Part shown: piece by piece, positions 1 through 48,438 of the stretch
Position numbering within the stretch: the first letter of the stretch is position 1
How the letters are laid out: every line of letters starts with the position of its first letter
Virus record (IMG/VR): IMGVR_UViG_3300033999_000086
Location: 1-48,890 of that record
From: a virus
Length of the DNA: 48,890 bases
Direction: 5' to 3' (one strand)
Position numbers and translations under genes: made by a program
Notes under the pieces: model-generated
Databases searched by the model: none
Told to the model about the DNA's origin: nothing
Seen by the model: only the letters and a program-made list of their open reading frames with translations

Positions 1-126
1 AATACATCTTCAAAGCTTTATTAACTACAGCACTTAAACTTATGTCTTTTTCTTTTGCTTCATTGAATATTTTCTCTCTCATGCTTTTAGTAATTACAAT
101 CGTTAATCGGTTATCTTGTTTTTCAA
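1..126. repeat. 187-bp perfect direct repeat, copy 1 (right part)
   Basis: This is the continuation, across the circular join, of the block that begins at 48765. Positions 1-126 match 7915-8040 base for base. Beyond 126 the two copies diverge, although they still encode related protein ends. Confidence 0.9.
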
Positions 127-172
127 TAAGTGGACCTATTTTATACCCATCAGGAATTTCTATCGTTCTCAT
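1..172 (-). CDS. ribbon-helix-helix DNA-binding protein, copy 1 (split by contig ends)
   Basis: The gene starts at ATG 172-170, with GGAGGTG eight bases upstream, and runs off the left edge. Its last codons are at 48812-48890, so on the circle it is a complete 61-residue protein. It has a basic N-terminal strand (RLTIVITKSMR) followed by two helices (REKIFNEAKEKD and LSAVVNKALKMYF), the pattern of Arc/CopG ribbon-helix-helix repressors. The C-terminal two thirds is identical in DNA to the copy at 7901-8086, while the N-terminal residues differ (IEIPDGYKIGPLIEK here). A small autoregulating repressor is the likeliest role; this is inferred from the fold. A predicted plus-strand small RNA converges on its 3' end. 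Confidence 0.75.
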   Translation of the reverse strand, partial: MRTIEIPDGYKIGPLIEKQDNRLTIVITKSMREKIFNEAKEKDISLSAVVNKALKMY

Positions 173-228
173 TATTTCACCTCCTCAGGTATCATAACAC
201 ACTTTTATAGAAAAAAGCAAGTGTAAAA

Positions 229-681
229 TTAATTATTCTCATCATCTTCACGTTTTGAAGCGTCGACTTTGTCAATAATGATTTTAATTTCGTTGTTTCC
301 TTCTTCTTTGCCTTCTTCATAGATCTTTGAATATTCGTTTATAAGTGCTTCGTATATTTGTAATTTTAACTCAATTAGCTTGTCTGTTCTAACATCTGAA
401 TAATCACGCTTTTTTAACTCTTCTTCTATTTCTTTCAACTGCGTGCCTAAAAGCTTTATCCTTCCTTGTTTCATCACACTGTATTGTTCAAAAAGCTTCT
501 CAAATTGTATTTTTTCAAGTTCACCAATTTCATTTGAAAGTTCTTTATTCCAATTAACAAGTGTTTTAATTGCAACTTTTAATCGCCGTGCTATTTTTGT
601 ATAGCTGTATCCTTTAGCCCGTAGTAATATAAACTGTTCTTTTAATTCATTTTTGCCACCTTCTTTTTCTATTTCATTCAA
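229..681 (-). CDS. TerS-like / helix-turn-helix protein
   Basis: A 150-residue protein read from TTG at 681, chosen because AAGGAG lies about eight bases upstream; the GTG at 690 abuts the ribosome site. Residues about 15-50 form a helix-turn-helix (GYSYTKIARRLKVAIKTLVNW), followed by long charged helices. The acidic C-terminus carries a hydrophobic strand (IKIIIDKVDAS). The phage small terminase at 38393-38791 has the same layout: an N-terminal HTH, helices, then FKVVVEYVDKEK. The sequences are not otherwise alike. It lies downstream of integrase and excisionase, where many phage satellites carry a terS. I infer a small-terminase-like packaging adaptor. A plain HTH regulator is the main alternative. 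Confidence 0.5.
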   Translation of the reverse strand: MNEIEKEGGKNELKEQFILLRAKGYSYTKIARRLKVAIKTLVNWNKELSNEIGELEKIQFEKLFEQYSVMKQGRIKLLGTQLKEIEEELKKRDYSDVRTDKLIELKLQIYEALINEYSKIYEEGKEEGNNEIKIIIDKVDASKREDDENN

Positions 682-702
682 TCTATTCACTCCTTTTTGT
701 CT

Positions 703-850
703 TTATGTCTGTAATTGCGATTATTTGCCTTTTTTTACATTATTCAAGCCCTGTGTGAAAGTTATGCCTGCTAAACAATTGACTATATGCTTCTTCTATT
801 TATTCAATTCATATTGTTCAAGTATTAACTACTTTCTTATGTCTGTAATT
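703..850. repeat. 14-bp direct repeat pair in the intergenic region next to integrase/excisionase
   Basis: TTATGTCTGTAATT occurs at 703-716 and 837-850, 134 bp apart, in the gap between the TerS-like gene and the excisionase-like gene. No protein gene is visible in 691-872. The repeats could be arm-type sites for integrase or excisionase, or part of an attachment region. Nothing in the sequence proves either. Confidence 0.4.
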
Positions 851-872
851 CGTGCTTTATTGCCATAGAATA

Positions 873-1064
873 TTATTCTTCTTTTTTACTGTCTTCTTTT
901 AAGAATTCTATTAAGCTGTCTTCTGAAACATAATATTTCACACCAAGCTTTTTAGCTTTTAACTTGCCTTGTTTTATCCACTCCCTTAAACTTACTACAC
1001 TTATGCCTAACTTTTCTGACAATTCTTGTAAATCATACATTTTTATACTTTCTAAGTTAATCAT
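873..1064 (-). CDS. excisionase-like MerR/HTH_17 DNA-binding protein
   Basis: A 63-residue protein with AAGGAGGT seven bases before its ATG. Residues 10-57 fit the small winged-helix excisionase fold: a first helix (LQELSEKLGI), a recognition helix (VVSLREWIKQGKL), then the K(A)KKLGVKYYVSEDSLIEFL wing and closing helix. It starts 18 bp after the integrase stop and is presumably co-transcribed with it. The expected role is control of excision directionality. A general HTH regulator cannot be excluded. The phage-side gene at 11422-11658 is a related fold. Confidence 0.65.
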   Translation of the reverse strand: MINLESIKMYDLQELSEKLGISVVSLREWIKQGKLKAKKLGVKYYVSEDSLIEFLKEDSKKEE

Positions 1065-1082
1065 ACTACTACCTCCTTAAAA

Positions 1083-2018
1083 TTAAAAATCTATGTAGTT
1101 CTCAGCACCTGCTTTAATGCGTTCCAAGTTATGAAAGTAAATCATCGTTGTTTTAATGTCTCCATGCCTTGCCATCGCTTGGGCTTGCTGTATAGAAGCC
1201 CCACCCACTATTGACAACGTTATTGCTGTATGCCTCAAACTATGGGCTGTTATGCGTGAATTGTTTATACCTGCTTTTATAAAAACGTTTTTTATTATTC
1301 TTGAAATGCTTCGTGTAGTCAATGCTTCACCTTTATTTTTATTACTTAATGAAATAAATAACGGTTCACTGTCTTTTAACTGCCTGCCAGCTTCTTTTTC
1401 ACGTTCCTGAAGATAGTCTTCAATCGGCTGTAAAGTCTTTTCGTTCAATACTACAAAGTCGTCTTTTTCGTCTCTCCCCTTTCCTTGTATCCAAAGAACG
1501 GCTTGCCCTGCTTCTTGTCTTATATCCCCTATTGCCGCCCTTGCCACTTCTATTGTTCTTAAGCCCGTGCGTGCTAATAAATTGAATAAAGCATAATCAC
1601 GTTTCCCTTCTAATGTATCCGTGTTAATTACATCTAAAGATCTCCTCAATTGACTTTTGTTTAATACGTCTTTTCTGTACCCTTTTGGTTTCCTTGGACT
1701 TTTGACTTTTGCTATATTTGGGTATATCTTCATTGCTTCACTCCATTCAAAGAATTTCCTGACTGCTGTCAAATAACCTGCAACGGTCAACGATGTTTTA
1801 CCTGTATTAATTAAATATTCTCTGTAAGCTAAAATATCATCTCGATTTAAACTTTCCCCCATTCTGTTAGTATCTTTTAACCACTTGAAGAATTGTTTTA
1901 ATTGCCTGTTATACGTGCGTTTAGAAGCTTCCTTAACGTCCTGGGACTTTATAAATGCTTCAATAGCTTCTTTATCACTTGAAAAACGCTTGACTTCTAT
2001 CTCAGCCACTGCCTTCAT
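1083..2018 (-). CDS. tyrosine recombinase / integrase
   Basis: An integrase of the XerC/D and phage type, about 311 residues. Counting from an upstream GTG at 2027, residues 20-110 are a SAM-like core-binding domain (SKRTYNRQLKQFFKWL) and residues 120-314 the catalytic domain. The catalytic set is complete: R157 in ARTGLRTIE, K183 in QGKGRDEK, H262 and R265 in HSLRH, H288 in ARHGD and the nucleophile Y297. The start is uncertain. ATG 2018 directly abuts GGAGGAG, whereas GTG 2009 has better spacing. It has its own strong promoter (2114-2142) and a structured leader. It is the only integrase in the window and should catalyse site-specific integration and excision. Confidence 0.92.
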   Translation of the reverse strand: MKAVAEIEVKRFSSDKEAIEAFIKSQDVKEASKRTYNRQLKQFFKWLKDTNRMGESLNRDDILAYREYLINTGKTSLTVAGYLTAVRKFFEWSEAMKIYPNIAKVKSPRKPKGYRKDVLNKSQLRRSLDVINTDTLEGKRDYALFNLLARTGLRTIEVARAAIGDIRQEAGQAVLWIQGKGRDEKDDFVVLNEKTLQPIEDYLQEREKEAGRQLKDSEPLFISLSNKNKGEALTTRSISRIIKNVFIKAGINNSRITAHSLRHTAITLSIVGGASIQQAQAMARHGDIKTTMIYFHNLERIKAGAENYIDF

Positions 2019-2025
2019 CTCCTCC

Positions 2026-2053
2026 ACCGTTGGGGTATTTTTACCCCGACGGT
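2026..2053 (+). other. 12-bp-arm hairpin in the integrase leader
   Basis: ACCGTTGGGGTA and TACCCCGACGGT form a 12-bp stem with a TTTT loop just before the integrase start region. In plus-strand RNA the only imperfection is a U-G wobble, and ATTTTTC follows, so it resembles a plus-strand terminator. In minus-strand RNA the same position is an A-C mismatch, but the GGGGTA/TACCCC core still pairs. It may shield integrase from antisense transcription or affect its translation. Confidence 0.5.
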
Positions 2054-2113
2054 ATTTTTCTTATTTCCTTCCAGTTCCACAACTTTTTGCGTAACTGGCT
2101 TTTTCTTTATACT

Positions 2114-2142
2114 ATTATACTACTTACTTATAACTTTGTCAA
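2114..2142 (-). promoter_or_regulatory. integrase promoter
   Basis: On the minus strand TTGACA (2142-2137) is followed by a 17-base spacer and TATAAT (2119-2114), a perfect sigma-70/sigma-A consensus. Transcription would begin near 2107, leaving a leader of about 80-90 bases. The flanking ACTATTGACAAA matches the promoters at 12230 and 14332. Confidence 0.85.
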
Positions 2143-2205
2143 TAGTAAAATATAATTTCCATTAAAATTAATATACTATTTACTTGCAAGCTTTTAATAA
2201 AAAGA

Positions 2206-2234
2206 CGGTACACTTCATTTAAAGAAGCATACCG
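2206..2234 (-). terminator. terminator after the 2314-2874 gene
   Basis: In minus-strand RNA CGGUAUGCUUC pairs fully with GAAGUGUACCG, using two G-U pairs, and is followed by UCUUUUUAUU. In plus-strand RNA the two wobbles become A-C mismatches, so the minus strand is the functional one. It separates the upstream satellite operon from the integrase promoter. Confidence 0.75.
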
Positions 2235-2313
2235 CTTTTTATCCGTTGTGCAACTTTTTGCACCACCGACGTTTTAATTTCCAGTCCAGGAATTATTTCC
2301 TGATCTGGTAGTT

Positions 2314-2874
2314 TTATAAAAACTTCTGAATAACAAAGTTTAACAGTTCGTTTTTTGAAATCCCCAGTTCATTTGAAGCCTTATTTAATTTCTTTTCGCT
2401 TTCTTCTAACATTCTGAATGAATTTACTTTCTTTTCTGTGCTTCTGTACATTCTTCTAAATTCTATATCATTTCTAAAAAGTTCTTTTATATTTGCTTTT
2501 ACTTCTGTTTCACTTCGTTTGTTTTCTACTTCTACTTGCTTATTCATTTCACTTTGCAAGCTATTTGCTTCTGTTTTGCTTTCTTCTTCTTTATTTCCTT
2601 CCAATGCTTTTAATCTACTTTCTAACTGTGTAATTCTTTCACTTAGCTTTTCATATGCTTTCGTTTCAATTTCATAGCTTGACGCTTTTACATTGCTTTC
2701 TTTTGCTTCTTCTTGAATAGCTTTGTAATCCAAGCCAGTCACTTCGTTGAAATACCTTGAAATGTCGTGCCTTGTTAGTGGTAATAGCTCCCTCTCAATT
2801 CGTGACGGAGTATAACCTTGCTTCAAGTAACTAATAATCTCATCTTTGTATTTAACTACGTTATCCCTGCTCAT
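2314..2874 (-). CDS. HTH and coiled-coil protein of unknown function
   Basis: A 186-residue protein. Residues 5-45 look like a helix-turn-helix (YLKQGYTPSRIERELL, then TRHDISRYFNEV). Residues 65-130 are a highly charged coiled coil (ERITQLESRLKALEG). The C-terminus has a further helical segment (SNELGISKNELLNFVIQKF). I do not recognise a family. It is the last gene before a terminator and the integrase promoter in the satellite-like segment. That position and a DNA-binding N-terminus would suit a regulator or replication/partition accessory, but this is inference only. Confidence 0.6.
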   Translation of the reverse strand: MSRDNVVKYKDEIISYLKQGYTPSRIERELLPLTRHDISRYFNEVTGLDYKAIQEEAKESNVKASSYEIETKAYEKLSERITQLESRLKALEGNKEEESKTEANSLQSEMNKQVEVENKRSETEVKANIKELFRNDIEFRRMYRSTEKKVNSFRMLEESEKKLNKASNELGISKNELLNFVIQKFL

Positions 2875-3375
2875 TCACCTTACCCCCTTTTAATATCAAA
2901 CTAATATCATACTATCATAAAAAAAATAAAAAGTTATTCACTTGCTTTTTGAAAGCATAGTAATTACATTGTAATCTTATTTCTGAATGAATGCATATTT
3001 TAGCTTTTACCTCTTTGTATAAGCTTCCAGGACGTTCTTTATATGCCTTCCTGTGTAACTACCTTATTGACACTAAAAACTTTTAACCTGCTTTAGAATA
3101 CAAAGCCCTGGGAAGTTATTTCATGCCTTGGGAATAAAAAAAGACTGCCTAAAAATAGACAATCTTTTTAAAAAAATGAAAAACACGCTTTAGCGTTCAA
3201 AAAGTCCATAATTAAATAAGTTGTAAAGTAAATACTTGCAACCACCTCTTTGTATAAGCCCCTGTATGCGTTTCTTTTTTCTTTCACGGTAAATTATATT
3301 CAAGCCGTTTTTTCTTTTAACCTGTTTAGAAATGCAAGCTAATTTAAGCATATTTTTCACTATCTTCTATTTCTT
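2875..3375. other. 500-bp gene-poor region with decayed repeats
   Basis: I see no convincing gene here. ACCTCTTTGTATAAGC occurs at 3009-3024 and again at 3244-3259. CGTTCAAAAAGTCCAT at 3194-3209 is identical to 4680-4695, the start of the 4408-4695 gene, so a decayed copy of that gene start is present; here it opens only a 13-codon frame. The region also holds the terminator at 3143-3164. It looks like the residue of duplication and deletion. Confidence 0.5.
3143..3164 (-). terminator. terminator after the 3376-3747 gene
   Basis: Minus-strand RNA forms GAUUGUCUA / UAGGCAGUC with a UUUU loop. All nine pairs form, three of them as G-U wobbles. A-rich sequence lies upstream and UUUUUUU follows. 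It closes the small-gene operon that starts upstream of 4294. Confidence 0.7.
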
Positions 3376-3747
3376 TCAATTGTTTAAAATCAACAACGCC
3401 CTTTTTATTAGTTTAAGCCATTCATTGAAATCACAAGTATCATCCCATTTTTTGTTTTGACCCTCAAGCCATCTTCTATTATTTTTATATAATAAAAAAA
3501 GCTGTGTAATTGTCTGTTTCGTTTCTAAATCAAACGAATATAACGCCTTGCCTTCCTGTTTAAAAGCCTGCGTAAGTTCTTTATCGTGAAAAGCCCCGTC
3601 AAATTTTTCAATCCATTTATTATATTCACTTTCCTGTAATTGCTTCAAAACAGGCAAATTTAAATCAAGTAAAACATACGACTTATTAATATTACCAGCA
3701 AGCTTTTTAACTTCTTCAAGTTCTTTAATAAATTCTTTTACAGTCAT
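3376..3747 (-). CDS. hypothetical protein
   Basis: A 123-residue acidic, helix-rich protein. The start is the ATG at 3747, which follows a GGGGGG ribosome site at normal spacing; the frame stays open further upstream but without such a site. Visible segments are an N-terminal amphipathic helix (VKEFIKELEEVKKLAG) and a C-terminal WLKLIKRALLILN helix. There are no catalytic motifs or membrane segments and I recognise no family. It lies 46 bp after the 3794-4294 gene and before a terminator, so the two probably share a transcript. Confidence 0.6.
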   Translation of the reverse strand: MTVKEFIKELEEVKKLAGNINKSYVLLDLNLPVLKQLQESEYNKWIEKFDGAFHDKELTQAFKQEGKALYSFDLETKQTITQLFLLYKNNRRWLEGQNKKWDDTCDFNEWLKLIKRALLILNN

Positions 3748-3793
3748 TTTTTTACCCCCCTTTGTTTTGGTAATGCTATATAAGTTCAAGCTT

Positions 3794-4294
3794 TCAATTA
3801 TAAATTTCATAATCTTCTATTTCTTTTATTCTTTCATCTATGTAATCATCAAACCAGCTTGAATAAAAATCTATTTCGTTCTCAAAAACTACATCATCCA
3901 ACTTTTTAGAAATTTCTGACGGTAAGCTTTCAAGAAATTCATACTTGTCAAATTCTTCATGTTCTTTCTGAAATGCTTCTAATGCTTCCAAACCGCCTGG
4001 GATATATTTCAACATAATGCTAAGATCTTCTAAGTCTGTATTGTCTAAACTTTGCCCTTTTATAAAGTCCTGTGCGTTAAACCTGTGAATAGCTATCGCC
4101 CTGCCATTCCAAACATCGCCGTCCATGCTGTTTTCTGACGTATACGTTGCTATGCCAACTTTACCGTCCTGACTAAGAATAACCTCAGTAACGCCCATAT
4201 TCATTTCAAAAGCTTGCTTTAATGCTTCTTCTAACTTATCCAAAATTTCATCACGGTTCTTTTCAATTAATTTTATCCATTGCTTACTTTTCAT
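3794..4294 (-). CDS. 166-residue paralogue-family protein (satellite copy)
   Basis: A 166-residue protein that is clearly homologous along its length to the 166-residue product of 12607-13107. Shared stretches include QWIKLIEKNRDEIL, EEALKQAFE, VILSQDGKV, GDVWNGRAIAIHRFNA and VVFENEIDFYS. The start is supported by AAGGAGGT ten bases upstream. The N-terminal helix (W, then E-A-L-K-Q-A) recurs in the products of 13304-13657 and 13673-13987. The family is unknown to me, with a predicted helix, beta-hairpin and helix layout. Having one member in the satellite-like segment and three on the phage side suggests exchange between the two, or a shared target. Confidence 0.7.
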   Translation of the reverse strand: MKSKQWIKLIEKNRDEILDKLEEALKQAFEMNMGVTEVILSQDGKVGIATYTSENSMDGDVWNGRAIAIHRFNAQDFIKGQSLDNTDLEDLSIMLKYIPGGLEALEAFQKEHEEFDKYEFLESLPSEISKKLDDVVFENEIDFYSSWFDDYIDERIKEIEDYEIYN

Positions 4295-4407
4295 TTCTTT
4301 TTACCTCCTTATTTATTTATCAAACTATTTAACAAAAACAAGCCCCCACGTTAGAAAAGTCCGTATACAAAATTATGCAAATTATACAATTGTATATTAC
4401 TGCCATT

Positions 4408-4695
4408 TTATTCTTTTTCTTTTTCTTTGCCATTTGTTTCATTACAAGCATTACCATGCGTGGTATTAGTTGCAACTTCATTCTGTTTTACTATTTCCAG
4501 CCAGCTTTTGCCTTCCATTTCTTCACCCCCTTTTGAATACAACTTATAAAATTCTTTTTGTTTTTCGTTCATGTGTTTACCCCCTTTCGTTTGAAAGCCT
4601 TCTTTGTTTTCTTTTTCTTTAATATTTGTTTCATTAGAAGCATTATCATTATTGATATTATTTCCAGTTTTTTCTTTTTCGTTCAAAAAGTCCAT
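4408..4695 (-). CDS. low-complexity protein with nested in-frame starts
   Basis: A 95-codon frame starting ATGGACTTTTTGAACG. It is rich in N, E and K and contains an internal duplication: NASNETNIKEKEN is echoed by NACNETNGKEKEK. Two strong ribosome sites lie inside, AAAGGGGGTAAACAC before an in-frame ATG at about residue 42 and AAAAGGGGGTGAAGAA before one at about residue 60. It may therefore be read as three overlapping products, or be a fusion of three small genes. The function is unknown. A trace of its start lies at 3194-3209. Confidence 0.45.
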   Translation of the reverse strand: MDFLNEKEKTGNNINNDNASNETNIKEKENKEGFQTKGGKHMNEKQKEFYKLYSKGGEEMEGKSWLEIVKQNEVATNTTHGNACNETNGKEKEKE

Positions 4696-4769
4696 ATAAA
4701 AACATTTTCAAAAATAGCTTGCGTCTACACTGTCAACTTTTTTAAATTGACTTTATTGACTATTCTTTT

Positions 4770-5012
4770 TTAGCTAAACGGCTTGAATGGTAATTCACGC
4801 CTATAAATCTTCATTACCGTTTCCTTGTTTCCAACAAACTGCATTGCGTATAATTTACCGTCCCTTGTATAATACCGTGCCATCACTTTCAAGCCTTCAT
4901 TTATTGCCAGTTCTTTTATATTTGCGTTCGTTGTGTATAAAGCATAAGTATCTTTATCTAACTTCCAATAGTCTTTTTCTTCTTTATTCACAGCGTTTAT
5001 TGTTTTTACCAT
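4770..5012 (-). CDS. small hypothetical protein
   Basis: An 80-residue protein with AAGGGGAT nine bases before the ATG. It contains a central helix (ANIKELAINEGLKVMARYY) and a following beta-strand pair (GKLYAMQFVGNKETVMKIY). I recognise no family. It is the first gene on the distal side of the iteron origin, so a replication-associated role is possible but unproven. Confidence 0.55.
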   Translation of the reverse strand: MVKTINAVNKEEKDYWKLDKDTYALYTTNANIKELAINEGLKVMARYYTRDGKLYAMQFVGNKETVMKIYRRELPFKPFS

Positions 5013-5133
5013 ATTATTATCCCCTTTAGTTTTATTTTTATCATTTCCAAGAAAAAATTTCGTTGTTTATACCCGTCCATTTTTGATTAAATTTTTTTGA
5101 ATATTTATTTGCGTTCAACTTAAAAACCACTTC

Positions 5134-5542
5134 AAACATGCATGGTTATCGGACGCATCCAGGATATCCTGGATTGTATTTTTTATATCCACCATTGTCG
5201 TGTTTTGAAACATGCATGAATATTGATCGCATCCAGGATATCCACCATATCCACCTTTTTTATTATTAATTATATATATTTATTTTTTACCCCCACGCCC
5301 CTACATTTTCAATCAAAATAAGGTATATTTACTATAAATTTTTTCTACTACTTTTTAAAATAATCATGGATATCATGGATGCGTTTAGTATTAATGCGTA
5401 TTTGAAAGATCTTTTTTCAAAAAATAATCATGGATATCATGGATGCGTTTAGTATTAATCAATGTTTTAGGCATGCTAAATTTCCAATTTTTTAAAATAA
5501 TCATGGATATCATGGATGCGTTTAGTATTAATGCGTATTTGG
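5134..5542. repeat. iteron array, probable replication origin
   Basis: Three copies of a 39-bp repeat containing ATGGATATCATGGATGCG start at 5357, 5421 and 5494; the first and third extend into GCGTATTTG. Two units in the opposite sense (5134-5169 and 5208-5243) share AACATGCATG followed by CGCATCCAGGATATCC. The first of these lies within a perfect 18-bp palindrome, ATCCAGGATATCCTGGAT (5157-5174). The inverted sets flank a very AT-rich stretch (5256-5350) that could unwind. The array directly follows the primase-helicase gene. I infer a theta-type origin bound by an initiator, possibly the primase itself. The 5013-5133 part shows no gene. Confidence 0.75.
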
Positions 5543-5560
5543 TAAAATGCCATGAAATTG

Positions 5561-7615
5561 TTACTTATATTTAATCCCTATTACTGCTCTTAATAACTTT
5601 CCATCTGTCCCAACGGGTCTATAATCACGATAAGGTATATACTTAGGTAATTGTGTGAAAAACGCTTTTTGTGAAAGTGCTGGTATATTATTCTTTCTAC
5701 AATACTGTATAAAATAATTATAAAGATCTTGCTTGGATATCCAATCATCGGGGGACTCTTCTAAATGCTCCTCTTCAAAAGCATAAACGGGGTTGGACTT
5801 TCGTTTATACTTTTCTCTAATTTCTTTATCTTCTGTAAAGCCACCACGTTTTAAAACTCTTTTTAAGCCATCTAAAGCTAAATTTAAAAAGTAAGAAAGT
5901 GCTGTTTTGGTAGTCAACTTTTCAATAAGATGGGGGTCTCTTTTGTCTCCGTCAAATGTCTCTTCAAAGTCAATAATTTTCCATCTTCTAAAAAATGCGT
6001 TGGACTCGTCTTTAGCGTCGGGGACTGTATTCGTAGAAAAAATTAACTTAGCTATATTCATAAAAGAAAAAGGCTCCTGAAATTTCTTTTCACCTTTTAC
6101 AACGCCGCCCCCAGTTAACATTTTGAAACCTCCAGTGGTGGCTAACGCTTTGTTAGACAAGTCATCGGCTATATTTGCAAGCTTCCCAAAAAGTGACGCC
6201 CGTGAAAACTGTTTACTTTCAAGATCTTGCAACGTTTCTGTACTGTAGTTTCCATCGCCTATAAGTGTTTTCAAAAGATTTAAGAATGTCGTTTTGCCAT
6301 TACTGCCACCACCTACCAGCATGAAAGCTTTATTATACCTGTAATCGCTATATAGACAATAACCTGCTATCTCTTCTAAGTCTTTTCTTTTTGCTTCGTT
6401 ATAGCTTGTAATTTCATCTAAAAACTTGTCAACTGTTTCATCGTATGCCTCGGGGTTGTAGTCAACAGGTATTTTATAAGTAAAATAGACATCGGGGGTA
6501 AAGTCCATTAGTGTGAAAGTTTTTATATTAAAAAGCCCGTTGTTTAACGGTATCAACGACTTATTAGTATTAATTTCTTTTCTGTCAATGTAATTTCTGT
6601 CTTTTAAATGTTCTATAACTTCGTTCTTAACATGCGTAGAAGCTTTTTCAAGTAGTATGCTTTCAACTGCTTGCCTAATATACCCATCCCCTGGGTGGTA
6701 AATGCCGTCTTTATATACGTATATTTCTCTTGTATCTCTTGGGGTTATAAAATGCTTATTTTCAAGTTCTTTTAAGCATATACTTATTAGCCTTTCTGTC
6801 TTTGACAAGTCTTTATTTTCTTCTTGACTGCTTTTGTTTTCTTTATTCTTATTTGCAAGGGGGTTCTGTTTATAAAAAAAGCCGTACGGTTCAACGGGTC
6901 TGTAAGCACTTTCAACTATGTTCTCAACTTCTCTGTCATTCATAGGGGGGTTATTCTTTTTATTCCATTCTTTGACTAAACTTAAAGCCTCTTCTTTTGA
7001 AAGTCCCTGCTTCCTGTAAAACGTTGCTAACTTAATACCGCTGTCGTTTCTACTGCCTTCACTTACACCGTTTATAATCGTGTCTATGTCAATAGCGTTA
7101 TTTACAGTGTTTTCTGAAATTAACTTATAAATAAGATCTTGTATATTAGTTAATCTTTCATGGTTGGGTATAGTGTCACCTGTGAAAGTAAAATACCTTT
7201 TAGAAGAATAAATTTCTATACCTTTGTCAAGGTCTTTCAATGTGAAATTTCCAAGTGCATAACCTAATATATGCAAGCCTTCACCACTGGGGGATACCTC
7301 AGCATAACAGGGGTAAGTATTTAAAATTTCTTGAATTGCTGACTTAAGCTCTCCGTCAATAAAACAATCATCAAAGTCAATGCCTACAATTCCATTGCCT
7401 AAAACAAAGCCCAAGCCACTTATACCTTTCGTATTCAAATATTTTTTTGCTGTTTCAAGGTCCGTCCAGTTTTGACTTTCATTAATGCTAATGGGTCCAC
7501 CTCTTACCCAGGGGGCAACGGGTAACTTTTTGCCATCGTTATCACTCCAACATATCCATCTTTTTTGACTTGCAAGCTCGGGGGGTACTTTAATATCTCT
7601 TTCAAGTTCTTTCAT
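5561..7615 (-). CDS. P4-type primase-helicase (prim-pol, PriCT, D5 helicase)
   Basis: A 684-residue replication protein. Residues about 10-170 match a prim-pol-like domain, with GIDFDDC as the metal site and SPSGEGLHI. Residues about 180-240 fit a primase C-terminal helical domain (KLATFYRKQGLSKEEALSLVKEW). Residues about 270-680 are a D5/SF3 helicase with Walker A GGGSNGKTT (about 434-442), acidic ADD, sensor FSTNTVPD and RRWKIIDF. Such proteins combine priming and unwinding in satellites, plasmids and some phages. It sits beside the iteron array. Its codons favour CCC, GCC and GGG (for example near 5750 and 7510), unlike the structural genes, which suggests separate ancestry. AAGGAG precedes the ATG. 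Confidence 0.92.
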   Translation of the reverse strand: MKELERDIKVPPELASQKRWICWSDNDGKKLPVAPWVRGGPISINESQNWTDLETAKKYLNTKGISGLGFVLGNGIVGIDFDDCFIDGELKSAIQEILNTYPCYAEVSPSGEGLHILGYALGNFTLKDLDKGIEIYSSKRYFTFTGDTIPNHERLTNIQDLIYKLISENTVNNAIDIDTIINGVSEGSRNDSGIKLATFYRKQGLSKEEALSLVKEWNKKNNPPMNDREVENIVESAYRPVEPYGFFYKQNPLANKNKENKSSQEENKDLSKTERLISICLKELENKHFITPRDTREIYVYKDGIYHPGDGYIRQAVESILLEKASTHVKNEVIEHLKDRNYIDRKEINTNKSLIPLNNGLFNIKTFTLMDFTPDVYFTYKIPVDYNPEAYDETVDKFLDEITSYNEAKRKDLEEIAGYCLYSDYRYNKAFMLVGGGSNGKTTFLNLLKTLIGDGNYSTETLQDLESKQFSRASLFGKLANIADDLSNKALATTGGFKMLTGGGVVKGEKKFQEPFSFMNIAKLIFSTNTVPDAKDESNAFFRRWKIIDFEETFDGDKRDPHLIEKLTTKTALSYFLNLALDGLKRVLKRGGFTEDKEIREKYKRKSNPVYAFEEEHLEESPDDWISKQDLYNYFIQYCRKNNIPALSQKAFFTQLPKYIPYRDYRPVGTDGKLLRAVIGIKYK

Positions 7616-7653
7616 TTATATTCACTCCTTGTATTTTTTTAATCTTTTCAAAA

Positions 7654-7692
7654 TAAAAAAAGGCTGCAACTTTTTCAAGGCAGCCCTTTTTT
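7654..7692. terminator. bidirectional terminator upstream of the primase gene
   Basis: GGCTGC (7662-7667) pairs with GCAGCC (7680-7685), with A-rich and T-rich arms on both sides, giving a U-tract in either direction. On the minus strand it would stop the 9.8-7.9 kb operon before the primase gene. On the plus strand it lies upstream of the small-RNA promoter. Confidence 0.75.
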
Positions 7693-7757
7693 AATGCGTG
7701 TTCTATTTGTTTTTTATATGCTTTTATGCTATAATTTACTTAGAAAGAAACTTGACA

Positions 7758-7802
7758 ATACATATGTATAAACTTGACAAGCTAACATAAAAGCGTTATA
7801 AT
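7758..7802 (+). promoter_or_regulatory. small-RNA promoter with upstream palindrome (B)
   Basis: On the plus strand TTGACA (7774-7779), a 17-base spacer and TATAAT (7797-7802) form a perfect promoter. Just upstream is ATACATATGTAT (7758-7769), a perfect 12-bp palindrome between two copies of ACTTGACAA. This would suit a dimeric repressor such as the ribbon-helix-helix proteins. An additional TGCTATAAT extended -10 lies near 7727-7735. Confidence 0.8.
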
Positions 7803-7808
7803 AGAAAT

Positions 7809-7896
7809 ATAAAAGACTTATAAAACAAGTGAAATGTCTTTAAACTTTTTAGATGGAGTAAAGAAGGGCTCCCAACCAAACTTTACTCCATTTTTT
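7809..7896 (+). ncRNA. predicted small RNA B
   Basis: A transcript of about 88 nt would run from the consensus promoter at 7774-7802 to a strong terminator: TGGAGTAAAG (7854-7863) paired with CTTTACTCCA (7881-7890), then TTTTTT. No open reading frame of note lies inside. The terminator loop carries GGGCTCCC, and its CUCCC is complementary to GGGAG ribosome sites such as that of the 48467-48622 gene. A near-identical RNA is predicted at 48728-48808. It converges on the 3' end of the RHH gene at 7901. Confidence 0.6.
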
Positions 7897-8040
7897 ATTT
7901 TTATTTTTCATTAAAATACATCTTCAAAGCTTTATTAACTACAGCACTTAAACTTATGTCTTTTTCTTTTGCTTCATTGAATATTTTCTCTCTCATGCTT
8001 TTAGTAATTACAATCGTTAATCGGTTATCTTGTTTTTCAA
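7854..8040. repeat. 187-bp perfect direct repeat, copy 2
   Basis: This block equals 48765-48825 plus 1-126 across the circular join, without a mismatch. It covers the small-RNA terminator and most of the RHH gene. Upstream, 30 more bases (7821-7850 against 48732-48761) are also identical, then three bases differ. Recombination between the copies would split the circle into about 7,914 and 40,911 bp. Confidence 0.92.
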
Positions 8041-8086
8041 CAAACGGTCCTAACTTATAGCCATCGGGCACATGTATCGTTCTCAC
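7901..8086 (-). CDS. ribbon-helix-helix DNA-binding protein, copy 2
   Basis: A 61-residue Arc/CopG-type protein. I choose GTG 8086 as the start because GGGAGG sits eight bases upstream and the position matches the start of the copy at 1-172; the earlier in-frame GTG at 8095 overlaps the ribosome site. The N-terminus (IHVPDGYKLGPFVEK) differs from copy 1, and everything from KQDNRLTIVI onward is identical. Expected role: a dimeric repressor binding a short palindrome, perhaps ATACATATGTAT at 7758. It is the last gene of the 9.8-7.9 kb cluster before the terminator at 7654. Confidence 0.8.
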   Translation of the reverse strand: MRTIHVPDGYKLGPFVEKQDNRLTIVITKSMREKIFNEAKEKDISLSAVVNKALKMYFNEK

Positions 8087-8123
8087 TTTTGCCACCTCCC
8101 CTCTTTATATATTTTTTGTAAAT

Positions 8124-8558
8124 TTACTCCATTATCAAATACATTCCATATTCTCCAACGGAGAAATATACTTCTACAAGATAATTGTCAAGCCATACAA
8201 AATAAGGCTCGGCTGATCTTTTAAAAGTGGAAAAATATCTCATGTTCTCAAGCAAGCAATCAAGTAGATCGTCTTTGAACTGTCTTGAATATGGAAGTTT
8301 TTCAGTGTCTAAAAATTCGATGTAATCTTCTTTCGTTGTATCAAAGCTAAAAGTGAAACATATAGAGTCGGAGTCTTTCAAAATGCCAAGTTTTATATTT
8401 TGATTTTCTGTCAAGATTATCCAAATCGACTCTTCCAACTCTATATACTCAATATCGTTACTCTCCCAATAGTTCACCAACTCCATCTGCATTTCTTGAG
8501 AAGCAAAAATACTTGAAACTGCCAAAATTATCGTAAAAACAACTAAAAACTTTTTCAT
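8124..8558 (-). CDS. secreted hypothetical protein
   Basis: A 144-residue protein with a clear Sec signal peptide (MKKFLVVFTIILAVSSIFA, cleavage likely after ASIFA-like residues near 19-20). The mature part is acidic and rich in aromatic residues, with no cysteines suggesting a lipobox. I do not recognise a family. AAAGGAGGAG precedes the ATG, which overlaps the stop of the 8555-8722 gene. Secreted accessory proteins of temperate phages sometimes alter the host surface or block superinfection; nothing here proves that. Confidence 0.65.
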   Translation of the reverse strand: MKKFLVVFTIILAVSSIFASQEMQMELVNYWESNDIEYIELEESIWIILTENQNIKLGILKDSDSICFTFSFDTTKEDYIEFLDTEKLPYSRQFKDDLLDCLLENMRYFSTFKRSAEPYFVWLDNYLVEVYFSVGEYGMYLIME

Positions 8559-12606: not shown

Positions 12607-13107
12607 TTAATTAAATTTTTCCTCTTCCTCAAGCTGTTCAATGTATAAATCAAGATCGACGTCAAACTCTGCTGAATACCAATCTACTTCATTCTCGAAG
12701 ACAATGTTTAAAAGTTCTTTTTTTACTTCAGAATCTAAATTGTTAAGAAATTCGTCTATATTGAATTCTTTATGCTCTTTTTGATACTTTTCGACTGTTT
12801 CTAATCCGTTTGGAATATTTTTTAACAGCCGTTCTAAATCTTCTATATCCAAATCATACACACTTTCACATTTTCTATAATCTTCTGCGTTGAATCTTCT
12901 TATTGAGATTGCTTTTCCAGTCCATACGTCCCCATCTGTAGTATTTTCTGAAACATAGTTTGCTATATCTACCTTGCCATCTTCATCGAGAATAACTTCA
13001 AATACTCCACTTTTTGCTTCAAAAGCTTGTTTCAACGCTTCTTCCATTTTTTCCAAAATCTCATCTCTGTTTTCCTCAATAAGTTTTATCCATTTTCTGT
13101 TTTCCAT
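12607..13107 (-). CDS. 166-residue paralogue-family protein (phage copy)
   Basis: A 166-residue protein of the same length as, and plainly homologous to, the product of 3794-4294. The start ATG 13107 is set by AAGGAG ten bases upstream; the GTG at 13116 is too close to it. Shared parts are RKWIKLIEENRDEILEK, EEALKQAFE, EDGKV, GDVWTGKAI, RRFNAED and VFENEVDWYS. Related shorter proteins follow at 13304-13657 and 13673-13987. The role is unknown. Small acidic, paralogous early proteins are often host-takeover or anti-defence factors; I see no direct evidence here. Confidence 0.7.
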   Translation of the reverse strand: MENRKWIKLIEENRDEILEKMEEALKQAFEAKSGVFEVILDEDGKVDIANYVSENTTDGDVWTGKAISIRRFNAEDYRKCESVYDLDIEDLERLLKNIPNGLETVEKYQKEHKEFNIDEFLNNLDSEVKKELLNIVFENEVDWYSAEFDVDLDLYIEQLEEEEKFN

Positions 13108-13237
13108 TCTTCTCACTCTCCTTGTTTTCTACATTTTCTTTTGCTTTTAATATTTCTAAAGCTCTTTTATATGATTTTGAAAGTTCATCATTCTTATTTT
13201 TATACTCTTCAATTGAATTGTCTAAATCTTCAGCCAT
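13076..13237 (-). CDS. small helical protein
   Basis: A 53-residue, entirely helical, highly charged protein (MAEDLDNSIEEYKNKNDEL, ending KQKMDKTY). AAAGGAGGA lies seven bases before ATG 13237. Its end overlaps the start of the 12607-13107 gene by 32 nt in another frame. The ribosome site and codon content make it likely real. Function unknown. Confidence 0.55.
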   Translation of the reverse strand: MAEDLDNSIEEYKNKNDELSKSYKRALEILKAKENVENKESEKNGKQKMDKTY

Positions 13238-13672: not shown

Positions 13673-13987
13673 TTATCTTGCTTGCCAATTAAACCCTGAA
13701 ATTTTCATTTCTAAAAACTCATCAATATCAAAATCTTTAATCTCTTCTAAATACTCAGGATAAAATGCGTATATGTAAATAGCTTTTCTATCGTCAATTT
13801 CTTTTGGGTTTATCTCCTCCGAATGTTCTATTATAGAAATTTCCCCATCCTCGTTTAGAATAACCGATATAACATTTCCTGAGTTTCTGCCTAATTTTCT
13901 TGCTAATTCTAAAGCCTCTTTAAGTTTATCCTTAATTAAACTCCTTTTCCCGTCAATCCTGTTTGCCCATTGTTCATTAGTTAACAT
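13673..13987 (-). CDS. paralogue-family protein (short member)
   Basis: A 104-residue protein starting MLTNEQWANRIDGKR; ATG 13987 has GAGGAGGA eight bases upstream. It shares with its neighbours the N-terminal Q-W, then I-K-x-K-L-K-E-A-L-E-L-A helix and a VILNEDGEISI strand pair. It lacks the C-terminal helical domain of the 166-residue members. Its start lies inside the intergenic junction with the 13990 gene. Function unknown. Confidence 0.6.
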   Translation of the reverse strand: MLTNEQWANRIDGKRSLIKDKLKEALELARKLGRNSGNVISVILNEDGEISIIEHSEEINPKEIDDRKAIYIYAFYPEYLEEIKDFDIDEFLEMKISGFNWQAR

Positions 13988-13989
13988 TT

Positions 13990-14298
13990 TTATTCCTCCT
14001 CTTTTGATAAAATTTCGAATCCTTCTTTTTCCATCCATCTCAAAACATCCTTCAATTGCATTTCTTCATTCTTTCTGCGCTGTTTCGCATTGGTCCCTGG
14101 TCTCCAAAAATATGTATTTTGTGTCAATATATCAGGGGCATCCTTGATTAATTCTTTAATTTCTTTCTTATTTCGATTATTTACCCGTCTACCATCAATA
14201 AAATACTTCACCGTCTTATATACATTATTGCAACTCTCACTATATGAAAACCATACCTCAATTTGTTTACCATCTACTACTTTCTTGCCCTTTATCAT
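13990..14298 (-). CDS. hypothetical protein, first gene of the early operon
   Basis: A 102-residue basic protein with AAAAAGGAGGT eight bases before the ATG. It has an N-terminal beta-hairpin (KKVVDGKQIEVWFSYS), a basic middle (DGRRVNNRNKKEIKELI), WRPGTNAKQRRKNEE, and a final helix (VLRWMEKEGFEIL). Basic charge and position directly behind a strong promoter would suit a nucleic-acid-binding early protein. No family is recognised. Confidence 0.6.
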   Translation of the reverse strand: MIKGKKVVDGKQIEVWFSYSESCNNVYKTVKYFIDGRRVNNRNKKEIKELIKDAPDILTQNTYFWRPGTNAKQRRKNEEMQLKDVLRWMEKEGFEILSKEEE

Positions 14299-20477: not shown

Positions 20478-20574
20478 CTTTTTCATCTCCTTTTTTAATT
20501 TCTTTGTTTGTTATCCAAATTTGTTGTTTTGTATCATCATCGAACTCGATTATTATTCTTTTTATTTTCAGCAT
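20464..20574 (-). CDS. 36-residue ORF after the reverse transcriptase
   Basis: ATG 20574 has GGAG seven bases upstream, and the frame ends at 20464 (MLKIKRIIIEFDDDTKQQI ... GDEKGESK). It overlaps the end of the reverse transcriptase by 38 nt and the next gene by about 14 nt. A beta-hairpin-like sequence with many charges. Its position next to a DGR reverse transcriptase is notable, but it is far shorter than known Avd proteins. Function unknown. Confidence 0.4.
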   Translation of the reverse strand: MLKIKRIIIEFDDDTKQQIWITNKEIKKGDEKGESK

Positions 20575-21568
20575 ATCTCATCTCCAGATTTTTAATGTGT
20601 TTCTGATACAAACGATAAGAATCACAATGTTTTAGCCACCCCTTATAGCTTTGAATACTACAATTATCTTTATATGAAATATTTTTGTGATTGCTAATAT
20701 TTTTCATTTTATGCTTCATTCGCTTTTTCGTCCCGGTTCTTAACAATGTAAAATCTTTAAAAATTCTGTATCCTAAAAAATCTATGCCTCTAACATTTGT
20801 TGGAAACACTTGCCAATTAGATTTTATTTCAACTCTTAAGTTTTCTCTAAAATACCAGTCAAAATGTCTTTTTAGCCAATGTAAATATTTTTTATTTTTA
20901 TGTAGTATAACAATATCGTCCATGTATCTAAAATAATATTTTATGTGTAAAGTCTGTTTACAATATCTATCAAATTCAGTTAAATAATAATTAGCAAAGT
21001 ATTGAGACAAATAATTTCCAATCGGAATTCCTTTATCAAATGAATCGATTATTAAATCTAACAGCCATAGCAAATCTTTATCTTTGAATTTCCTTCTCAA
21101 TTTGTCTTTTAAAATTTTATGATTTATACTTGGATAATACTGCTTTATATCCAGCTTTAAACAATACTTCGTGTTATATTCATCTTTCAAAGCTTCTTTA
21201 ACTCTTTTTAATCCAAAGTGTATTCCTCTATTTGGAATAGAGCTATATGTATCATAGATAAACATTTTTTCAAATATAGGCCCTATAATTTGCAATACTG
21301 CCCATTGAATAATTCTATCGGGATAGTAAGGTAATTTGGATATCAATCTTGTTTTGCCTTTATCGATTTTCTCAAAAACTTCATAATTAGATACTTTATA
21401 TGTTTTATTGATTAACATCTTTTGAATTTCTTGACAATAATACTTTGGATTTCCATCAACCATTTTTACTTCTTTATAAAATGTTTTGTTTTTCCTTGCA
21501 TTGGAATGTGCTAAAAGTAAATTATTAATATCAATGATTTGTTCAAATAAATTTCCGTATCTTTTCAT
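20537..21568 (-). CDS. diversity-generating retroelement reverse transcriptase
   Basis: A 343-residue reverse transcriptase. The start is ATG 21568 (MKRYGNLFEQIIDINNLLLA), with AAGGAG five bases upstream and the N-terminus typical of DGR enzymes, including AHSNARKNK. The catalytic core has KLDIKQYYPSI (D140) and YMDD (215-218). Motif 4 is GIPIGNYLSQ (180-189), the (I/L/V)GxxxSQ form characteristic of DGR enzymes, where group II intron enzymes have QGxxxSP. No maturase, endonuclease or msr/msd element is present. It copies the template-repeat RNA (21681-21792) with misincorporation at adenines, and the cDNA replaces the variable repeat in the 21856-22899 gene. Confidence 0.96.
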   Translation of the reverse strand: MKRYGNLFEQIIDINNLLLAHSNARKNKTFYKEVKMVDGNPKYYCQEIQKMLINKTYKVSNYEVFEKIDKGKTRLISKLPYYPDRIIQWAVLQIIGPIFEKMFIYDTYSSIPNRGIHFGLKRVKEALKDEYNTKYCLKLDIKQYYPSINHKILKDKLRRKFKDKDLLWLLDLIIDSFDKGIPIGNYLSQYFANYYLTEFDRYCKQTLHIKYYFRYMDDIVILHKNKKYLHWLKRHFDWYFRENLRVEIKSNWQVFPTNVRGIDFLGYRIFKDFTLLRTGTKKRMKHKMKNISNHKNISYKDNCSIQSYKGWLKHCDSYRLYQKHIKNLEMRYAENKKNNNRVR

Positions 21569-21647
21569 AAATCTCCTTGCTTGTTGTACTTTCCACAATT
21601 TCGATTTTTAAGTCTACTGTTGTGGATTTCTCAATTTTTCTGTTTGA

Positions 21648-21792
21648 CCCAGAGGTCTGGGAAGAAAAAGGCGCAAAAACAAGTAAGGTGAGAGCCGATA
21701 TTCCGATTCGAATTAGACGGAGTATTATTCAGATTCAAAGTGAACAGTCCAGCTTGCAATCCATTATTCCAATTCGTGCTCGAATGAGCGAC
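21648..21792 (-). ncRNA. DGR template repeat (TR) and spacer hairpin
   Basis: TR occupies 21681-21792 and is read on the minus strand. It aligns without gaps to the variable repeat 21873-21984. Of 112 positions, 23 differ and all 23 are A in TR; the other 82 non-A positions are identical. Nine AAT codons make it adenine-rich at the diversified codons. Homology ends at both sides shown (TR TAA against AGG upstream; GTTTTT against CTTATA downstream). In the spacer toward the reverse transcriptase, CCCAGA and TCTGGG (21661-21648) form a perfect hairpin. The transcript of this region would be the template RNA. Confidence 0.96.
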
Positions 21793-21855
21793 TTACTTTT
21801 TCTCCCCTTGTTTTTAATTCACTTTCAAAAAACTCATTGAGATTTGCAAATACCG

Positions 21856-22899
21856 TCAAATCTCAATATAAGAAGCAAGGCGAGAGCCGATACGCCGATC
21901 CGAATAAGACGGAGCAGCAGACAGACTCAAAGCGAACAGCCCAGCCAGCAATCCATAATGCCAACGCGCGCCCGAAAGAGCGACCCTTGCGCCTGTATTC
22001 ACCCATGTATAATCTGTTAAATAAGTTGATGATGAGCCATTGAAAGAATATTCAGGAATCAGCCCCCATGGAATTCTTTTATCGGTTGACTTTATATATC
22101 CATAAGTATAAACAGTAACATCTGCCCGTGGATAAAACTCTTTCATATTTGCGGGCGTTGTCACATTGTTTTCAATATCAAAATATACTCCTTCTGCAGT
22201 CTTTAAAAATCCGTCTAAAAACTCCCAAACGTTTCCCCACAAGTTTTCTATCCAGAGGAATCTAAACGGATAAGTCACAGTTTGCCCTGTTTGAAAAGTA
22301 GCTCCGTTTTCAAGTGTAGTTAGTGTAACTTCTCCATCAGATTGAGAACCTAAACTCAAAGTATGACCAGTATTTTGACTGTGATTGACCGTTCCAGAAT
22401 TTAAATTTGTTATTCCTTGACTAAGAGATGATTGCGAGTTTAAATTTCCATATTTCAGAGCAAATAATAATCCGAGTAGTCCATAGTCGTATCCGTTTTT
22501 CAATCCATAATAGGTTCCAGCGTTTGGAGTTCTATTTTTTGCAGCAGTTCTAAACTGATCGATAGTTTTCAAAGTTGTAGGTTGAACAAAAGGAATCGAA
22601 CGTAATCTATTGTCAATATCTACATATCCTTCAAAAGCTCCCAATCTTCTTTTGCAAACTTTTCCATTGTAAATAAAAGCAGGATGGAGTTCATAGCCAA
22701 TTTTGTAGTCCCAACTTAGCCATGTTTTCCAAGTGTTGCCTTCCAAAGCCACTTTGTAATAAATTGGTGGAATTTCTACTTTATAATCTACAACGTCGTT
22801 ATCGGCACTCGTTATCGTTGACGTATTCGAGTATTCACCAACTTTTGCACCTGTAATCTTGTCTACACTAATAAACTTTATTCTACTGAAATCAAACAT
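21856..22899 (-). CDS. DGR target: C-type-lectin-like variable tail protein
   Basis: A 347-residue protein. The N-terminal 100 residues are beta-rich (VEIPPIYYKVALEGNTWKTW). The remainder has C-type-lectin-fold marks seen in DGR targets: YDYGLLGLLFALKYG, then RFLWIENLWGNVWEFLDGF. The C-terminal variable segment at residues 306-342 includes RWHYGLLAGLFALS and RRIGSRLA. Twenty VR codons contain a template adenine and 17 residues differ from the TR-encoded version. Codons in VR are GC-rich compared with the rest of the gene, as expected after A replacement. It overlaps the Dit gene by 8 nt, so it is probably a receptor-binding protein at the tail tip whose ligand specificity is diversified. Confidence 0.93.
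   Translation of the reverse strand: MFDFSRIKFISVDKITGAKVGEYSNTSTITSADNDVVDYKVEIPPIYYKVALEGNTWKTWLSWDYKIGYELHPAFIYNGKVCKRRLGAFEGYVDIDNRLRSIPFVQPTTLKTIDQFRTAAKNRTPNAGTYYGLKNGYDYGLLGLLFALKYGNLNSQSSLSQGITNLNSGTVNHSQNTGHTLSLGSQSDGEVTLTTLENGATFQTGQTVTYPFRFLWIENLWGNVWEFLDGFLKTAEGVYFDIENNVTTPANMKEFYPRADVTVYTYGYIKSTDKRIPWGLIPEYSFNGSSSTYLTDYTWVNTGARVALSGARWHYGLLAGLFALSLSAAPSYSDRRIGSRLASYIEI
21873..21984 (-). repeat. DGR variable repeat (VR)
   Basis: A 112-bp segment at the 3' end of the lectin-like gene, offset 192 bp from its template repeat at 21681-21792. It ends 17 bases before the stop codon. Changes from the template are A to G, C or T on the coding strand only. The invariant ATCGGCTCT near its 3' end would be part of the initiation (IMH-like) region. 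Confidence 0.96.
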
Positions 22900-37210: not shown

Positions 37211-38409
37211 CAGACGCTCCTTTTTATTTTAATCTTGATATTCCTTGCCGTTTCATCGTATCCCATGAAGTACTCACAAGCATATCTCATAGCGTCCATA
37301 GCATGGTCATTGAATTTCACGGGTTCGTCAAGTATTTCTCCATCTTTCTTTTCCTTCCATTTATACGACTGAATTTCTTTTATAGTATTCGCACATGTTT
37401 CATGAATATAAATCTTCTTTCTTTTAAGCAAGTCTATTCCATTTGCGACTTTTTGCTTTGCTTTTTTTGCAGCTCGAATATTGAAACCTGCTCGTTCTAT
37501 TTCTTTTATCCTGTCTGGCTCTGTATCAGAATATATTTCATCATATCTATTGTCTACAAAATTTTTCAGTTTCTCGATTAAATCTTCATTCGTCAAATGA
37601 GTTTCGTATAGCTCATCAAGAATATAGATATCATCGTCTTTTATGCCAATCTTCAAACAAGCTGTCGGATTGTTATATCCAAAGTCCAATCCGTAGACTA
37701 TCTCATCAAATTTTTCTGGTAGCTTTGAAACGACTTTGTAATTGCTATAAATTTTATTCTTTAGTATTGCAAACTGTCCAAGAGTGTATATTTGATAGTA
37801 GGTCTCATCTTGTTCTTTGAGATACTCCAACATCTTTGTATATTCAACATCCAGGAACGGATTGTCAATGTACGTTGAATGCAAAATCGCAACATCATCA
37901 CTTTCTTGTTCAAAGAACTGTTTCTGTGTCCAGCCTGCGACGGGGTTAAAAGTCAAAAACATTTGATTGACTGAATTTGTCGACCTTCTCAATCTCAATT
38001 TCAACTGCAAATAGTCCTCGTAGTCAAATTCCGTTGCTTCCTCCATCCAAACATAGTTGAACTCCGAAGACTTGATTTTTTCTGCGTCATCCAACCCCCT
38101 AAAATAAATCTCGTTTCTCCTGGGTAACTGCAAGACTTGCTCAGATTTATTTTCAACATAAGGAACCTCTAACTCGTTCAAAATTTCATGCACTAATTGC
38201 CATGTAGTAACTTTTAGTGAGGGATTATATTTTCTGGTAATTAAAAGCCTTTTGTTCCTATTACTCAACAACTTTTCGATTAATAAAAATTGAGCAACAG
38301 TATAAGACTTCCCACTTCCTGCTCCACCATATACTATGATTTCTTTCTGCTTTTGGCTTTCTTGAAGAAACGCATATATTTTCTTTATTACCTTAACTCT
38401 CGCTTCCAT
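37210..38409 (-). CDS. terminase large subunit
   Basis: A 399-residue packaging motor and nuclease. Walker A is GGAGSGKS (28-35), Walker B lies in YVWMEEATEF, and the coupling motif in MFLTFNPVAGWTQ. The nuclease domain has VYGLDFGYNNPTA, SDTEPDRIKEIERAGF and FNDHAMDAMRYACEYF, the RNase H-like acidic residues of the terminase_3 (PBSX/SPP1) group. It overlaps the small terminase gene by 17 nt. Related enzymes in this group mostly use headful (pac) packaging, which a satellite TerS could redirect. Confidence 0.95.
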   Translation of the reverse strand: MEARVKVIKKIYAFLQESQKQKEIIVYGGAGSGKSYTVAQFLLIEKLLSNRNKRLLITRKYNPSLKVTTWQLVHEILNELEVPYVENKSEQVLQLPRRNEIYFRGLDDAEKIKSSEFNYVWMEEATEFDYEDYLQLKLRLRRSTNSVNQMFLTFNPVAGWTQKQFFEQESDDVAILHSTYIDNPFLDVEYTKMLEYLKEQDETYYQIYTLGQFAILKNKIYSNYKVVSKLPEKFDEIVYGLDFGYNNPTACLKIGIKDDDIYILDELYETHLTNEDLIEKLKNFVDNRYDEIYSDTEPDRIKEIERAGFNIRAAKKAKQKVANGIDLLKRKKIYIHETCANTIKEIQSYKWKEKKDGEILDEPVKFNDHAMDAMRYACEYFMGYDETARNIKIKIKRSV

Positions 38410-38791
38410 CTTGCTTTTCCTTGTCGACGTATTCTACAACTACCTTGAATCCATCTTTATCAGCCGACAAATCGACTTTGTCTTTCCTTCCCCAATCTTC
38501 AAAATACTTCCTTTCTAACCACCACGCTGCTGCTTGCCAATTCCCTTCTTGCGCTGCACGTTGAATCAATGCGACATTTCTTGCAATTGCGTCTTTTTCT
38601 GCCTTTTTCACAGTCTCGTAAAATTCTCTTTTCATGCCGCTTTTAGCTTTCTCACCTTCGTTTAACCAGCGAAACCACGTCGAATCATCTATTCCGAGGA
38701 TAGGGGGTATATCTTTTATATAATTTCCTGCAGAAACCAGTTTAAACGCTTCTTTGATAAGTTCTTTTGTTAATTTCGATTTTCTCGGCAT
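38393..38791 (-). CDS. terminase small subunit
   Basis: A 132-residue protein starting MPRKSKLTKELIKEAFKLV. An N-terminal helix-turn-helix (AGNYIKDIPPILGIDDSTWF, then RWLNEG) is followed by oligomerisation helices (AIARNVALIQRAAQEGNWQA). The C-terminal strand FKVVVEYVDKEK contacts the large subunit in this family. It recognises the packaging site. The satellite-side protein at 229-681 shares this order of parts. Confidence 0.88.
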   Translation of the reverse strand: MPRKSKLTKELIKEAFKLVSAGNYIKDIPPILGIDDSTWFRWLNEGEKAKSGMKREFYETVKKAEKDAIARNVALIQRAAQEGNWQAAAWWLERKYFEDWGRKDKVDLSADKDGFKVVVEYVDKEKQDGSES

Positions 38792-48134: not shown

Positions 48135-48153
48135 TTTTCTACCTCCATTATTT

Positions 48154-48438
48154 TTAATTTTCAAATGTTTGCCCATAATAAATATGTAATGGATCAAATC
48201 CCATTTTTGCAAGTTGATTTAATTCATTTGGATAATGATCACACATACATTCTTCAAGGTCCAAGCGAAGTTTAGCAAGATCTTCAAGAATATGATTAAA
48301 TTCTTTAGAAATATTACTAGTTTTGCCTTCTGAATTAGATATTTCAACATAAAGTTTAGTAAGTATTTCATGAATAAAATTTAGATATGCTCCTATTTTT
48401 ATATGTCTTTCCAGTATTAATCCCTCTTTCTTGCTCAT
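48154..48438 (-). CDS. hypothetical protein
   Basis: A 94-residue mostly helical protein with GGGAGGT eight bases before the ATG. It contains an amphipathic helix (AYLNFIHEILTKLYVEISNS), a second (FNHILEDLAKLRLDLEECMC), then DHYPNELNQLAKMGFDPLHI. No recognised family. It is the second gene of the early operon. Confidence 0.6.
   Translation of the reverse strand: MSKKEGLILERHIKIGAYLNFIHEILTKLYVEISNSEGKTSNISKEFNHILEDLAKLRLDLEECMCDHYPNELNQLAKMGFDPLHIYYGQTFEN

Follow-up and report, generated by a model that had tools for sequence, protein, structure and literature searches.

What is the DNA that occupies the first ~7.9 kb of a virus record in which the genes of a tailed phage begin only at 8.1 kb? 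The window analysed here is the whole of IMG/VR virus record IMGVR_UViG_3300033999_000086, 48,890 nucleotides in which nearly all genes lie on the minus strand; a 65-base overlap between its two ends defines a nominal circle of 48,825 bp. A sequence-only reading of this window had described the first segment as a satellite of the phage-inducible chromosomal island (PICI) or P4 type, possibly a parasite of the phage carried in the same circle. The segment is real, but that reading missed the direct repeat of ribbon-helix-helix (RHH) genes that bounds it and the position of the contig ends inside this repeat; as corrected, its limits are 1–7914. We consider it quite probable that the record links a small cryptic plasmid with a P4-type primase to a complete phage, either through an assembly path or as a recombination cointegrate. 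The composite origin of the record is supported, membership of the segment in the PICI or P4 families is not, and the junction with the phage is informative, possibly artefactual.

The two elements meet at R, a 188-bp exact repeat present at 7853–8040 and again at 48764–48825 joined to 1–126; cutting the nominal circle at R yields 7,914 bp and 40,911 bp. R consists of the last 126 bases of two RHH genes together with the hairpin after them. These genes, which run in the same direction and bound the segment, are RHH-A on the segment side (61 amino acids, minus strand; 5′ part at 1–172, 3′ end at 48812 across the record origin) and RHH-B on the phage side (64 amino acids, 7901–8095, minus strand). 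Their products share 90% amino acid identity, and the gene starts have diverged (34/47 bases identical). A third, different RHH gene (48467–48622, minus strand) adjoins the phage-side repeat.

The phage part (8096–48763; 40,911 bp closed on R) has its own TerS (38393–38791; phrog_4102, 4.7e-28), TerL, portal, major head, tape measure, replication initiator, DnaB, SSB and RecT-like genes. A related phage, G004 (IMGVR_UViG_3300034685_000103; TerL 92%), bears a 127-bp terminal repeat that closes it to a circle of 40,823 bp; its sequence runs collinearly with window positions 8287–47930, in blocks of 82–98%. At the site of the segment, G004 has 511 bp that include neither the segment nor R nor the RHH genes, and three further phages with related initiators and DnaB (L039, L040 and L041) likewise have neither segment nor R there. 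As the phage part and G004 are only 88 bp apart in length, the phage appears to be whole even without the segment. The proposal that two elements of different origin share the record is supported, and four related phages occur without the segment, so that the two parts are not always joined. G004 is also without the region separating its homologues of 47799–48212 and 8124–8558.

Codon use sets the segment apart as well. At 5.52, its codon distance from the phage is greater than that of all 45 contiguous phage blocks of similar size (maximum 4.67), whereas the primase by itself (5.78) is no more distant than some single phage genes, which reach 6.11. An unusual codon choice had been proposed for the primase on the basis of three codons: the contrast is clear for CCC (18/28 proline codons in the primase versus 17/227 in phage genes), and the differences are small for GCC (3/31 versus 26/604) and GGG (7/46 versus 68/544). 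G+C content is similar in the segment and the phage (32.3% and 31.9%).

The backbone of the segment is of plasmid type. In the direction of transcription, its first half carries a primase-helicase, iterons, an 80-amino-acid open reading frame (ORF) and proteins of 166 and 144 amino acids; its second half carries a 186-amino-acid protein, a tyrosine recombinase, a 63-amino-acid HTH_17 protein and a 153-amino-acid helix-turn-helix (HTH) protein. The integrase and excisionase named in the sequence-only reading were both recovered. The former is a plasmid-type, XerC/D-like tyrosine recombinase of 314 amino acids (1083–2027, minus strand; PF00589, E = 1.2e-24) and gives the only PF00589 match of the whole record; the latter is an HTH_17/excisionase-type DNA-binding protein (873–1064, minus strand; PF12728, 1.1e-12; phrog_66, 4e-8) whose TIGR01764 score is slightly below the cut-off of that model. 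The closest integrase matches among those listed (41–46% identity) lie on plasmids, many of them small and non-mobilizable, such as pSh1187-2 and pSMQ-316, and homologues of the HTH_17 protein sit near the integrase on plasmids. The 153-amino-acid protein, HTH153 (HTH plus helical; 229–690, minus strand), matches p29887, pLRI05, pCYLB55-1 and circular IMG/VR records; pLRI05 and pCYLB55-1 are also among the integrase matches. HTH153 had been taken for a TerS-like protein. It matches no TerS family, its one terminase match being weak and to a TerL family (phrog_3746, 0.005), and it has no match among 50,697 phage records; it is instead a gene of the plasmid backbone. An AlphaFold model of HTH153 alone (mean pLDDT, the model's per-residue confidence, 59.6) was too poor for a fold search.

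Homologues of the integrase, HTH_17 and HTH153 genes lie together in one common order on p29887 and on L048, L050, L051, L052, L054 and L059 (in L059 across the ends), and this cassette order of the p29887 kind is present in the segment. These six records were found by profile scans of IMG/VR, several of them having the terminal repeats of circles. Five of these small "virus" records (L048, L050, L051, L054 and L059) encode this integrase along with ParA-like proteins and replication genes of plasmid type, and resemble plasmids. The named plasmids p29887 (10.8 kb), pLRI05 (14.1 kb), pSMQ-316 (6.7 kb) and pSh1187-2 (7.4 kb) are small non-mobilizable plasmids of Firmicutes. Like the segment, they combine the integrase with HTH_17 and/or HTH153, co-directional and in the same order, downstream of a helicase/primase-type replication gene; several have an RHH-like gene after parA, and the segment too has an RHH gene.

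The replication genes proposed for the segment were also confirmed. The 684-amino-acid P4-family primase-helicase (5561–7615, minus strand; PriCT_1, D5_N, DUF5906 and Pox_D5) scores 202.9 bits against TIGR01613 (5.2e-60; cut-off 108.7). Adjoining it is an iteron cluster (5131–5541), the probable origin, with three direct and two opposed copies around GGATATC..GGATGCG: the 53-nucleotide direct copies, at 5352, 5416 and 5489, are 85–100% identical, and the related opposed copies lie at 5131 and 5205.

The RHH gene of R has plasmid relatives. The nearest NCBIfam model to RHH-A is NF041793, "ORF56 plasmid copy control" (7.9e-5, below the cut-off); the RHH gene of R is matched both by a profile built from six plasmid genes positioned after parA (E = 1.4e-5) and by the RHH gene that follows parA in L054. 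A search with R as a sequence pattern gave no match. On these matches R is plasmid-type DNA, and the phage-side copy, which the sibling phages lack, probably came from a plasmid of this kind. R was also considered as a conserved pac or cos site of the phage and was rejected, the sibling phages being without it.

Does the 48.8-kb circle exist? The contig opens on the final 126 bases of R and closes on its first 127 (48764–48890), the final 65 of which repeat window positions 1–65; the terminal overlap therefore lies wholly inside R, which also occurs internally. In de Bruijn assembly with k = 127, contigs keep such overlaps (within one base) at a branch node, and the 127-bp terminal repeat of G004 fits the same k. 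The contig is thus the path plasmid–R–phage, with ends of the kind that a k = 127 graph would leave at an unresolved branch. Two circles explain the record as well as one. The "same circle" of the sequence-only reading is accordingly not established by ends that lie 126 and 127 bases inside R. A free 7,914-bp circle of the segment is compatible with the contig ends, relatives exist as free circles, and we infer that the plasmid exists separately.

Several observations weigh against a plasmid and a phage joined in this way. The assembler passed from plasmid through R to phage at 7853–8040, which may reflect real read pairs joining the two. The relatives use other replication genes (CHC2/DnaB-like, AEP-primase or RepB rather than a P4-type primase-helicase) and mostly carry ParA, whereas no ParA was found among the ORFs or family matches of the segment. 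The plasmid was not found by itself: a primase scan was null in viral contigs and gave only two distant archaeal primases in genome contigs, exact peptide patterns meant to pick up near relatives of the primase, the integrase and the RHH protein matched nothing in viral contigs, and a DNA search of plasmids and phages gave none either. Finally, the 166-amino-acid protein of the segment (3794–4294, minus strand) is 58% identical to the product of phage gene 12607–13116, which suggests that segment and phage exchanged genes or draw on one gene pool. The family to which it belongs has several copies among these phages (12607–13116 and 13673–14038 in the window, L040:4255–4587 and L041:3678–4043).

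A genuine and stable insertion of the segment into a phage RHH gene, by its own integrase or by homologous recombination and with the 48.8-kb form prevailing, would account for the direct repeats that flank the segment, for the closeness of one repeat to the integrase and HTH_17 genes, for the contig that crosses one junction and for an integrase that is the only one of the record. We nevertheless regard it as unlikely. Attachment (att) sites usually show cut copies of a gene end, unlike the RHH genes here, which are both full-length with their own starts. The closure of the circle is wholly inside R, and a 48.8-kb genome, 120% of the 40.8 kb of the sibling, would be hard to fit into the same head.

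That the segment is a dedicated PICI- or P4-like satellite redirecting the packaging of this phage is very unlikely, although much of the inventory that suggested it is there. P4-like satellites and PICIs share with the segment a P4-family primase-helicase, an integrase, a small HTH regulator and the lack of virion genes; as had been stated, no capsid or tail genes are recognised in 1–7914. The integrase and small excisionase-type regulator of a PICI are present, but both are part of the plasmid cassette; a replication gene with an adjacent iteron origin is present, as is the alpha-type primase-helicase of P4-like elements. The company of a complete phage in the same record and the gene 58% identical to a phage gene also speak for a satellite, and the segment may be a parasite of this phage. 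There is moreover a precedent for packaging without TerS or capsid genes in plasmid pMP1 of Marinitoga piezophila, which is packaged by phage MPV1 (PMC11921389). As here, a small plasmid that encodes neither virion proteins nor TerS stands beside a complete tailed phage, and a short shared sequence has been proposed as the basis of packaging; packaging has been demonstrated for pMP1, a 13.3-kb plasmid whose shared candidate site spans 28 bp, whereas here the exact identity covers 188 bp and packaging is hypothetical. On the other side, family searches recognised no packaging or interference gene (TerS, Ppi, Rpp or capsid redirecting; ORFs without matches remain) and gave no match in the segment to a capsid-size redirecting gene (Sid) or to Psu. 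Segment and phage share no exact word longer than 18 bp that could hold a common cos or pac site; R is the one exception, and it is missing from the sibling phages. Unlike P4-like satellites and PICIs, the segment thus has no recognised packaging or capsid gene, no conserved shared cos or pac and a backbone whose relatives are ordinary plasmids, and no island was found in one scan of genome contigs with the primase. The weakest alternative, a normal lysogeny or replication module of this phage lost in its relatives, agrees with the common strand and similar G+C content but is hardly credible, being disfavoured by the four related phages without the segment, a codon use unlike every phage block, the plasmid backbone, and a phage that already has an initiator, DnaB and SSB.

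The other genes of the segment are a 186-amino-acid protein with a weak RHH-like C-terminus (2314–2874, minus strand; Arc-like phrog_582, 0.0013), a 144-amino-acid protein (3376–3810, minus strand) with a weak homologue in L039 (32%, E = 1e-4) and the 80-amino-acid ORF (4770–5012, minus strand), which has no family match. An Rfam search gave no match, and PADLOC no convincing defence gene. Among phage records, the nearest TerL is that of a Thermoanaerobacterium phage (48.5%). The best PDB matches of the SSB include 1z9f, a Thermotoga protein. The phage contains a diversity-generating retroelement (20537–21984, minus strand): its reverse transcriptase (20537–21598; phrog_1423, 2.3e-123) accompanies a template repeat (21678–21792) and a variable repeat (21870–21984) at the 3′ end of tail gene 21856–22899, and 23 of the 24 differences between the repeats fall at template adenines. 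At 38798–40409 (minus strand), a protein matching beta-glucosyl-HMC-alpha-glucosyltransferase (phrog_842, 7.7e-61) adjoins a ParB-like/DNA methyltransferase-associated protein, so that modification of the phage DNA is possible. In L039, a 431-amino-acid ORF between dnaB and ssb (4614–5909, plus strand) resembles an IscB-type nuclease in its N-terminal sequence only.

On the reading that we favour, the plasmid, a circle of ~7,914 bp, probably replicates from the iterons by means of its P4-type primase-helicase, and the record is either one assembler path through R or a real cointegrate formed by homologous recombination at R. A candidate agent for the latter is the RecT/Bet-like single-strand annealing protein of the phage (10044–10991, minus strand; phrog_2780, 1.3e-35), which may recombine across R; plasmid DNA would then enter phage concatemers and particles. 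In phage SPP1, homology raises plasmid transduction 100–1000-fold, segments of >50 bp suffice, pac is dispensable and the annealing protein G35P is essential (PMC5615212). Two features on which such homology-facilitated transduction depends are present here, namely the RecT-like protein and 188 bp of exact homology (>50 bp). By analogy with SPP1, and tentatively, the plasmid may enter concatemers and particles in this way. The SPP1 case pairs, as here, a RecT/Beta-type annealing protein with a plasmid having >50 bp of phage homology; there the shared sequence had been introduced by cloning, whereas the homology in the present case would be a natural one, within a gene of plasmid type that the phage carries. 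More doubtful is the broader idea that an RHH stretch is kept identical in a natural plasmid and in a phage, so that the phage recombinase fuses the two and particles carry the plasmid, homology taking the place of packaging genes.

For public catalogues, these data mean that elements sharing <200 bp can look like one circular "complete virus"; a terminal overlap inside an internal repeat, with the contig ending k bases into that repeat, is the warning sign. In staphylococci, non-conjugative plasmids are moved by phages and PICIs via generalized transduction (PMC8494744). If the cointegrate is real, the record would represent an example from nature of homology-facilitated plasmid transduction, a possible route of spread for many plasmids without transfer genes.

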